Positions 14,149 through 21,615 of a DNA stretch of 41,208 bases are shown in pieces. Made by a program: the position numbers and the translations under genes. The notes beneath the pieces are model-generated. The model worked only from the letters and a program-made list of their open reading frames with translations. It did not search any database and was not told where the DNA came from. Every line of letters begins with the position of its first letter. Positions within the stretch are counted from its first letter, which is position 1. The DNA comes from Actinomycetota bacterium (lineage in GTDB: Bacteria > Actinomycetota > Acidimicrobiia > Spongiisociales > UBA11373), in contig JAHJML010000016.1 in assembly GCA_018821365.1 (NCBI GenBank), positions 1 to 41,208 on the forward strand. Reading direction: 5' to 3'.

Positions 14149-14910
14149 TCAGCGGGTGGCAATCGCGAACAGGCGGCGGAACGGGAAGAGGGTGGAACCG
14201 TCGGGGCCGGGGGGGTAGTGGGGCCGCAGGGCGGCGGCGTACTCGGCGAAGAACGCCCCGGCATCATCGCCGAGATCGTCCAGGAAGGGCCGGGCCGCGG
14301 CACCCTTGACCCATTCGGCGGCGGCATCCTCGCCGTGCAGCACTTGGTAGTAGACGGTTTCCCATAGGTCCACCGTCGCGCAGCGGGGGGCGAGTCGGCC
14401 GAAGTAGGCGTCCGGAGGATCGACCGGCCGCCACCCCGCCCGATGGCCGACCCGATCGGCCCAGCGGGGCCGTTCGGCGACCTCGCCGAGCACCCGGTGA
14501 GAAGGCTCGTCGAAGTTGCGAGGCATCTGAACCGCCAGCACTCCTCCCGGTGCCAGCGCCTCCGCCAGTGCGGGGAACAGTGCATCGTGATCGTCGACCC
14601 AGTGCAGAGATGCGTTGGCGAACACCAGGCCGGCCGGCTCTCCAGGGTCCCAATCGGCGATGTCACCCTGGACCCAGGCGACCCCGCTCTCTGCGCCGCC
14701 GGCTCGCTGGAGCATCTCCGGCGACGTGTCGAGGCCGGTCACCCGGGCGGCCGGCCACCGGGCGGCCAGCATCCGGGTGATGGCTCCGGTCCCGCACCCG
14801 AGGTCCCAGATGGTGGCCGGGTCGATGTCGGGGATGCGGGCGATGAGGTCGAGCGCCGGCCGGGTCCGGTGATCCTCGAAGCGCAGGTACTGGTGGGGAT
14901 CCCAGGTCAG
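14149..14910 (-). CDS. tam: Trans-aconitate 2-methyltransferase, apparent CTG start
   Basis: A 253-residue SAM methyltransferase (E. coli Tam has 252). Motif I is DLGCGTG, then GLDTSPEM and FANASLHWVDDH, and the tail LFPFRRLFAIATR aligns with the Tam end. Tam methylates trans-aconitate, a spontaneous inhibitor of aconitase. The family N-terminus (M.W.P..YL.F...R.RPA..LL.R.P) matches CTG-ACC-TGG-GAT, with GAGGAA seven bases ahead; no ATG, GTG or TTG exists between the upstream in-frame stop and this point. The first ATG inside the gene would remove motif I. So either CTG is the start codon, or a base change has hit the start. Ten bases separate it from the upstream membrane-protein gene. Confidence 0.85.
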   Translation of the reverse strand: MTWDPHQYLRFEDHRTRPALDLIARIPDIDPATIWDLGCGTGAITRMLAARWPAARVTGLDTSPEMLQRAGGAESGVAWVQGDIADWDPGEPAGLVFANASLHWVDDHDALFPALAEALAPGGVLAVQMPRNFDEPSHRVLGEVAERPRWADRVGHRAGWRPVDPPDAYFGRLAPRCATVDLWETVYYQVLHGEDAAAEWVKGAAARPFLDDLGDDAGAFFAEYAAALRPHYPPGPDGSTLFPFRRLFAIATR

Positions 14911-19142: not shown

Positions 19143-21002
19143 TCACCAGGCGCCGCCGCCGCCGCCACCACCGCCGCCTCCGCCTCCGCCCGAGAACCCT
19201 CCACCCGAACCGCCACTCGATGGAGCGGCGAATGCCCCGCTGAGGGCTCGCTCGATGCCGGAGATGGCATTGCTGCTGTGGCCCCCGTATCCGTGGCTGC
19301 CGTACCAGTAGAGGTGGCTCTCGGATTCGAGGGCCTCGGGAGCCCTGAGGCGGGCGGCTTCGAGCACGTCGTCGGCCACCCCGAAGGCGATGGCATAGAC
19401 CAGATACTCCTCCCACAACCCGATGGCGATCGGGGGCGCCTCCTCGAGGCGGCTGAAGTCCTGCAGGTACCGCTTGAAGGCAGACCAACGGGCCGCCTCC
19501 AGCGCACCGGCCCTGGTCCGGCGGACCCACAGCCTGCGCATCGGCCCGGCCAGGGCGCCCAGGGTGGCGCCGAGACCGCCGATGACGGCGAAACCGGCCC
19601 GCAGCAGGTCGGGCTGCAGGCCCTCCGACAGGCCGGTGAGGATCGGTGTGACGACGAACCATCCGAAGGCCCCGAAGGCGATCGAAAGGCCGATCAGCCA
19701 ATAGGACGCCTTGAGGCCGTCCTGGTCGAGCAGGCGGTCACCGACCAGGGCGGCCCGGGTGCGCTTCTCGAACACCTGGTAGGTCTTTGCGTTGGCGGCG
19801 GCGTCCTCCCGGATGGCCTTGCGGAACTCGGTCAGCGGGGTGGGGCCGTCCCCGAGGACCCGCTTCAGCACGGTCAGCACCGAGCGCTCGAAGTCGCGCA
19901 GGCCCCCCGGGTCCGGTCCGAGGCCGACGAGCAGGTCCGATATCTGCTCGCGGCGCAGTCCTCCCCAGGTGCGCTGCTCCACCGTGGTGGGTTGGGCGGT
20001 GAGGACGCCGCGGCGGATGAAATCGAACATGGTGGCGACGAAGTCGGCCTCGTCCGATCCACCCTGGCGGAGCAGCGAGCCGACCAGCGCAGGTGCGAGG
20101 GCGGTGGGCGGCGACTGCTCGTAGCGGAGGTCGTAGTCCACCTTCGGCTCCCTGCCGTGGCGGAGGTACGCCCTCGCCACGAACAGCGGGAGCAGGCCGG
20201 CGGCGATGACAACGATCAGCAGGGAGTTGCGGGTGCCGCGCCGTTCGGTGTCGCCGCGGGCGGCGTAGGCCTCCTCCTCGGCGAGAATGCCCGCCAATCC
20301 CGATCCCGACTTCACGGTGGCCCCGCCGGTGGACGTCAGCCAGTCGGCGGGGAACACCACCCGGAACTCGACCCACTGGCGGCTGGGGATCCCGTCGGCG
20401 GCCAGTGCCGGCGACCTTCCGTCGGTGCCCAGGGTGGTGGACCCCTCGACGCTGTCGGGGTGGCCCCACACCAGGACGTCGCCGGGCGCCCCGGCGCCGG
20501 GCAGGGTCAGGTGCGACTCGAGGTGGTCGAGGCCGACCTTCCACTCGTCTCCCCACACCTGCAGGTAGACATCGGCGACATCGTCGTAGGCCACCGTCAG
20601 TCCGATCAACCGGTAGGTGATGCTGAAGGTCCGCACCTCGTCGCTGGCCCGGTAGTGCCACACGATCCGGAAGCGGTTCCCGAGGTCCTCGACGCCGAAG
20701 GTGCCCGGCGTGCCGCTCGATCCGAGTTCCGTCGGTGCTCCCGGCGAGTACCCGGTTTGCCCCTCCGCCACCGCGATGTCGGTGACGCGCTCACCGGTGC
20801 GCACCGCCACGTCCCGGTACGCCCCCGAGAACGAACCGCTGAAGGCGAAGGTGATCTGCTCGGTGACCAGCAGCGAGCCGTCGTCGGCGACGACGACCTC
20901 GACCTCGGCGGCTGGGAGGCGGTAGTCCTTGGCGAAGGCGTGGCCGGGCAGGGCGACCAGCACGGCCACGGTGAGGACGGCGAGGGTGGCGAAGCGCCTC
21001 AG
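19143..21002 (-). CDS. DUF2207 (YciQ-like) membrane protein, apparent CTG start
   Basis: A 619-residue exported membrane protein. A clean signal peptide (RRFATLAVLTVAVLVALPGHAFA) is followed by a DUF2207 ectodomain (about 25-235), a helix near 243-262, a cytoplasmic region, two further helices, and a C-terminal tail that becomes almost pure glycine, ending AW. All are typical of DUF2207 proteins. It is paired with LemA, as in many genomes. The frame has no ATG, GTG or TTG near the signal peptide; CTG at 21002 overlaps the LemA stop as CTGA, with a G-rich stretch upstream, which parallels ATGA coupling. GTG codons inside the signal peptide are poorer alternatives. Function unknown. Confidence 0.85.
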   Translation of the reverse strand: MRRFATLAVLTVAVLVALPGHAFAKDYRLPAAEVEVVVADDGSLLVTEQITFAFSGSFSGAYRDVAVRTGERVTDIAVAEGQTGYSPGAPTELGSSGTPGTFGVEDLGNRFRIVWHYRASDEVRTFSITYRLIGLTVAYDDVADVYLQVWGDEWKVGLDHLESHLTLPGAGAPGDVLVWGHPDSVEGSTTLGTDGRSPALAADGIPSRQWVEFRVVFPADWLTSTGGATVKSGSGLAGILAEEEAYAARGDTERRGTRNSLLIVVIAAGLLPLFVARAYLRHGREPKVDYDLRYEQSPPTALAPALVGSLLRQGGSDEADFVATMFDFIRRGVLTAQPTTVEQRTWGGLRREQISDLLVGLGPDPGGLRDFERSVLTVLKRVLGDGPTPLTEFRKAIREDAAANAKTYQVFEKRTRAALVGDRLLDQDGLKASYWLIGLSIAFGAFGWFVVTPILTGLSEGLQPDLLRAGFAVIGGLGATLGALAGPMRRLWVRRTRAGALEAARWSAFKRYLQDFSRLEEAPPIAIGLWEEYLVYAIAFGVADDVLEAARLRAPEALESESHLYWYGSHGYGGHSSNAISGIERALSGAFAAPSSGGSGGGFSGGGGGGGGGGGGGAW

Positions 21003-21547
21003 AAGGCCACCCCCGGGGCGTTCCTGGCATCGTCGGCGGTCTCGAAGAAGTCGCGGGTCTTGAAGCGGGCGAGCACCGCCACCAGATTGGCGGGGATGGT
21101 CTGTGTGGTGGTGTTGTAGGTGAGGACCGTGTCGTTGTAGATCTGGCGGGCGATGGCGATCTTGTCCTCGGTGTCGGAGAGTTCCGATTGGAGGTGCTGG
21201 AAGTTCTCGCTCGCCCGCAGGGCGGGGTATTGCTCGGCGAGGGCGAACAAGCGCTGCAGCATCGAGCCGAGTACGCCCTCGGCCTGGGCCTGATCGGCGA
21301 CCCCCGACGCCGACTGGGCTGCGGTGCGGGCCGTCACCACATCGACGAAGGTCTGCTGCTCGTGGCCGGCGTATCCCTTGACCGTCTCGACCAGGTTGGG
21401 GATCAGGTCGTAGCGCCTGCGCAGTTGGACATCCACCTGCGCCCAGGCGTTGTCCACCCGGTTTCGCTGCTTGATGAGGCGGTTGAAGATCGCAACGGCC
21501 ACCAGGAGCAGCACCCCGGTGATCGCGAGCACGATGGTGAGTGTCAT
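20999..21547 (-). CDS. lemA: LemA family protein
   Basis: A 182-residue LemA protein (usual length about 185). One N-terminal transmembrane helix (residues 4-20, VLAITGVLLLVAVAIFN) is followed by RLIKQRNRVDNAWAQVDVQLRRRYDLIPNLV, the defining LemA stretch, and then a helical bundle. The N-terminus is outside and the bundle is cytoplasmic in known members; their role is not settled. TACCAT stands seven bases before the ATG and there is no ribosome site, so the message is probably leaderless. The DUF2207 gene overlaps its stop codon. A divergent tldD gene starts 69 bases away. Confidence 0.93.
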   Translation of the reverse strand: MTLTIVLAITGVLLLVAVAIFNRLIKQRNRVDNAWAQVDVQLRRRYDLIPNLVETVKGYAGHEQQTFVDVVTARTAAQSASGVADQAQAEGVLGSMLQRLFALAEQYPALRASENFQHLQSELSDTEDKIAIARQIYNDTVLTYNTTTQTIPANLVAVLARFKTRDFFETADDARNAPGVAF

Positions 21548-21560: not shown

Positions 21561-21615
21561 TCGGCGAGTTTCCGGCACTGTCGTACCATGGTCCGGCCCG
21601 AGGAGGTACCAACCC

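Follow-up and report, generated by a model that had tools for sequence, protein, structure and literature searches.

Which codon starts the DUF2207 membrane protein gene that lies downstream of lemA? A preliminary description had proposed that its signal peptide begins at a CTG overlapping the lemA stop codon, and the minus-strand sequence from 21020 to 20960 (cgccccgggggtggccttCTGAggcgcttcgcc) places both codons exactly there (Table 1). The window, i.e. the whole stretch of 41,208 nucleotides analysed here, was compared with related junctions from the same order and beyond.

Table 1. Features of the lemA–DUF2207 junction (positions in the window)
Feature	Position	Strand	Remarks
lemA (182 aa)	20999..21547	-	LemA PF04011; 3' end CCG GGG GTG GCC TTC TGA
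DUF2207 membrane protein gene (619 aa from CTG)	19143..21002	-	PF09972 and PF20990
Proposed CTG start	21000..21002	-	shares bases with lemA TGA 21001-20999 as CTGA
Shine-Dalgarno-like GGGGGTGG	21007..21014	-	in lemA codons; duplex -13.3 kcal/mol with generic 16S tail
Predicted signal peptide of DUF2207 (24 aa)	20931..21002	-	RR n-region, AFA/K boundary by eye

The junction and its missing standard start

All three domains (PF04011; PF09972, DUF2207; PF20990, DUF2207_C) exceed the curated Pfam cut-offs, and the LemA match (E 6e-58, profile positions 1-149 of 149) reaches the final residue of the protein. The DUF2207 frame is -1 relative to lemA, and the proposed start shares a four-base overlap with the TGA. 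Translation from the CTG yields LRRFATLAVLTVAVLVALPGHAFA followed by KDYRLP, which by eye looks like a normal signal peptide. No ATG, GTG or TTG lies beside the start of this signal peptide; the only nearby in-frame standard starts are a GTG at 21578, which precedes the lemA ATG, and two GTGs at +32 and +38 within the hydrophobic core. Scanning for codon usage, without regard to start codons, likewise sets the coding boundary at the CTG, with the caveat that the overlap with lemA biases the boundary toward the lemA end.

Searching 99 genomes of the same order, which according to named contigs are Acidimicrobiia MAGs of Actinomycetota, returned DUF2207 in 53, and 50 junctions were readable, the window included. 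All 50 have lemA immediately upstream on the same strand, and DUF2207 is in the overlap-start (-1) frame at 34 of them (binomial p 6e-7, the rows not being independent). We define as CTG-only those junctions with an overlap CTG and no in-frame ATG, GTG or TTG from -60 to +26. This class comprises 22 loci, ten others have the CTG plus a nearby alternative, two have a standard overlap (one TTGA, one GTGA) and 16 fall outside these types. An ATGA in relatives, which had been named as evidence against the CTG start, occurs at none of the 50 junctions. That a sequencing or assembly error had turned ATGA or GTGA into CTGA in one genome might be suspected of an incomplete assembly of 318 contigs, but its probability is practically nil: 32 of the 50 assemblies, the window included, share the in-frame overlap CTG across six family groups of the same order, other named MAGs have it too, and this conservation already refutes the error.

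The same comparison bears on the two downstream GTGs. Gene callers would pick +32, +38 or the distant upstream GTG, and either of the former would shorten the signal peptide; we nevertheless regard a true start there as very unlikely, since it would lie inside the hydrophobic core and forfeit the Arg-Arg n-region. GTG positions vary between relatives and are not kept even within the genus (+29 in L002), which removes the objection raised in the preliminary description that a downstream GTG might prove to be the start. In 12 of the 22 CTG-only loci the whole stretch between the upstream in-frame stop and +60 has no standard start, and in seven of them the same is true as far as +110. Any given downstream codon index holds a standard start in at most three of the 22, and between codons -12 and +10 no other start-like codon occupies a fixed position, apart from the Lys/Arg codons right after the CTG (K/R within codons 2-4 in 21/22).

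On a tree, both of the order's large clades contain the CTG state, a spread that would fit an ancient origin within the order; over 64 rows, Thermoleophilia among them, the CTG-only label requires 13 changes. Nine of 130 loci without lemA adjoining DUF2207 were dropped and duplicates were merged to 84; 20 short rows were removed from the first tree. Substitution counts after the CTG in close pairs are mixed and too few to carry weight. Judged from these sequences, the CTG belongs to the order and not to a single organism. Prodigal, a common gene finder, accepts solely ATG, GTG and TTG (PMC2848648); throughout the order it would therefore misplace the N-terminus of DUF2207 and with it the signal peptide.

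The end of LemA and the Shine-Dalgarno sequence

The choice of the codon may be dictated by LemA. Its C-terminal residue is Phe in 48 of the 50 same-order loci, and a Phe codon (TTC or TTT) directly before TGA limits a four-base overlap to CTG or TTG, so that in a G+C-rich genome CTG is what would be expected, and its fixation has a simple reason. Three Thermoleophilia read TTT TGA and thus have TTG as the overlap codon, and the relatives with a standard overlap carry one additional LemA residue behind the Phe (TTC TCT TGA in L024, TTC GGG TGA in L026). Because LemA ends in Phe before TGA, the CTGA alone is no proof of its use: TTCTGA also terminates lemA in 14 of the 16 relatives whose DUF2207 starts elsewhere. 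The signals not attributable to chance are the shared frame (34/50), the absence of standard starts and the Shine-Dalgarno sequence.

The LemA codons for P-E-V often read GGAGGTG about six bases ahead of the CTG. All duplex energies refer to a generic anti-Shine-Dalgarno, since a search of the assembly for the organism's 16S found none. Their mean is -10.3 kcal/mol in CTG-only loci, -5.0 in those with an alternative start and -3.9 in the others (CTG-only versus other: Mann-Whitney p 8e-6, rows not independent), and merely 0.5% of 4350 background sites in lemA reach the CTG-only median. The starts available to the other loci are likewise weakly equipped (mean -3.0). GTG encodes the Val of the PxVxF motif in 16 of 22 CTG-only loci and in 3 of 16 others, compared with 253 of 650 internal Val codons. 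The association between Shine-Dalgarno and CTG lies mainly between clades, with two (at most five) independent tree pairs, a number at which no significance is attainable. Taken together, the reading frame, the lack of standard starts, the conservation across relatives, the Shine-Dalgarno and the signal peptide support the predicted CTG start; the observation made at the junction is right, and stronger than could be told from the window.

Proposed reinitiation at the overlap and its main rival

We put at roughly 80% the probability that translation of DUF2207 starts at CTG 21002 through termination-reinitiation coupled to lemA. The ribosome would finish lemA at the TGA, be held after termination by the strong Shine-Dalgarno in the last LemA codons, step one base back and restart on the overlapping CTG with fMet. 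The strong Shine-Dalgarno would thereby make up for the weak codon, and restarting at CTG may set a low DUF2207:LemA ratio. We infer that ribosomes start on the CTG by reinitiation rather than fresh initiation. Neither the initiator tRNA nor IF3 is missing, and both have a normal appearance. Loss of IF3 was rejected as a cause, since IF3 is found in 20 of 21 genomes, and so was an odd initiator tRNA, whose anticodon-stem pattern is present in 5/5 genomes of the family (ARAGORN confirms four of five loci).

Reinitiation is described as requiring the initiator tRNA and as inhibited by excess IF3, with partial protection by a Shine-Dalgarno, and loss of ribosome recycling factor reportedly leads to initiation at non-canonical codons close to stops (PMC2268962); these observations fit a more permissive post-termination ribosome. 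Against the CTG stand a mycobacterial selection with Shine-Dalgarno, in which CTG was not enriched (0.03%; PMC4633059), and the use of an AUG-to-CUG change as a non-start mutant (PMC11260477). The order-wide CTG conflicts with the view from mycobacterial assays that this codon hardly initiates in Actinobacteria, and the junction lends itself to testing, in a natural setting, whether the choice of start codon is loosened under coupled reinitiation.

Termination-reinitiation at NTGA motifs (Huber et al. 2019, PMC6728339; 2025 review, PMC12548453) resembles the junction in the shared stop and start bases and in a Shine-Dalgarno within the upstream gene. In a large survey the -4 overlap is given as ATGA or GTGA (PMC10666635), whereas the overlap codon at lemA–DUF2207 is a conserved, Phe-constrained CTG and not a standard start (ATG, GTG or TTG) as in usual coupled pairs with a four-base overlap. 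The trend that a weaker start codon accompanies a stronger Shine-Dalgarno also matches Belinky et al. 2017 (PMC5622118), but their trend concerns GUG and UUG, and CUG is excluded from the Shine-Dalgarno analysis; the same study counts two AUG-to-CUG switches among 61,358 ancestral AUG starts. In the literature searched, mostly outside subscription papers, no paper was found that describes a conserved CTG at this junction.

The main rival is a -1 frameshift, or stop suppression combined with a frameshift, at the end of lemA, which would generate a LemA-DUF2207 fusion and make a start codon unnecessary. The -1 frame at 34/50 loci is in line with such a fusion, and in mycobacteria an AUGA overlap is reported to yield a frameshifted fusion as a minor product, with reinitiation as the main route (PMC11260477). 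Inspection revealed no conserved slippery site, the codons preceding TTC TGA vary, and a slip from TTC to CTT or GTT would mispair. Furthermore, DUF2207 lies in a different frame or has a start of its own in 16 of 50 relatives, and the overlap start is a standard codon in two. We consider the fusion unlikely.

An Actinomycetota-wide search of 396 genomes matched 75; of the 30 loci given, seven were from the order already seen and 23 were read. No lemA occurs in the fetched upstream stretch of 21 of them, all of which have an in-frame ATG, GTG or TTG ahead of the match, and the two with an upstream lemA show one CTGA and one ATG at +5. The odd start goes with the lemA overlap rather than with the family of DUF2207 proteins. 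In Thermoleophilia, four loci (L140, L151, L158, L164) keep the -1 frame but read CTAG at the junction, hence CTA, and contain no ATG, GTG or TTG from -400 to +130. The absence of any NTG at these junctions speaks for a frameshift, and other means of starting DUF2207 are thus possible elsewhere.

CTG starts elsewhere in the genome

The preliminary description also suspected that CTG initiation in coupled genes is a habit of this organism. A sample of 369,134 bp (12.7% of the genome), processed with our own simple gene caller instead of a published one, contains three clear CTG starts among 339 genes: DUF2207, a Tam-like methyltransferase (window 14910) and folK (L072:14754, CTGA). Among 111 coupled pairs, 48 have standard four-base overlaps (25 ATGA, 23 GTGA) and 13 overlap in a CTG frame. 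In five of these 13 no standard start occurs within 30 nt. DUF2207 and folK are the convincing cases among the five; the other three have an ATG 32-62 nt downstream as the likelier start. None of the 12 CTG-frame overlaps in the relative G004 lacks a nearby standard start. CTG starts therefore recur in this genome but are rare, and the suspected habit is borne out in part. Genome-wide, Shine-Dalgarno enrichment rises near gene starts for ATG, GTG and TTG; CTG is not among the top codons listed and is thus not a common start overall. Genes without a standard start near the coding boundary (9/186 in the first sample of the genome, 8/353 in G004) were discarded as candidates, most being false boundaries on inspection.

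The Tam-like gene, probably the second CTG case of the preliminary description, has no ATG, GTG or TTG near its start. Its CTG (14908-14910, minus strand) does not lie on an overlap; GAGGAA is located six bases upstream, and the GTG or ATG starts of relatives fall on the same codon or adjoin it. The Tam-like gene of G004 (L175) also lacks a standard start and has an in-frame CTG on a TGA, the upstream reading frame being short (41 aa).

The query for folK matched 57 genomes, some via its second domain only, and 36 loci were examined. A standard start is present in 25 and absent in 11, where the start was placed by hand. These 11 (L072:14754, L196-L225, L284-L303) are found among the 13 genomes of the organism's own family with a readable folK start; outside the family all 23 loci have a standard start, that of L302 solely seven codons upstream. 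Four of the 11 offer a CTG and one a CTG one codon further on, while the remaining six, without a usable CTG, have only ACG (four), GCG (one) or TCG (one), located one base past the upstream stop. A Shine-Dalgarno-like stretch precedes each of the 11 starts. Together with the CTG of DUF2207 these codons might suggest that post-termination ribosomes of this lineage restart by position and Shine-Dalgarno, the codon mattering little, a generalization that we consider doubtful; a +1 frameshift could explain the folK cases without NTG. The folK gene at L072:14754-16263 encodes a fusion with an APH-type phosphotransferase domain (HPPK + APH).
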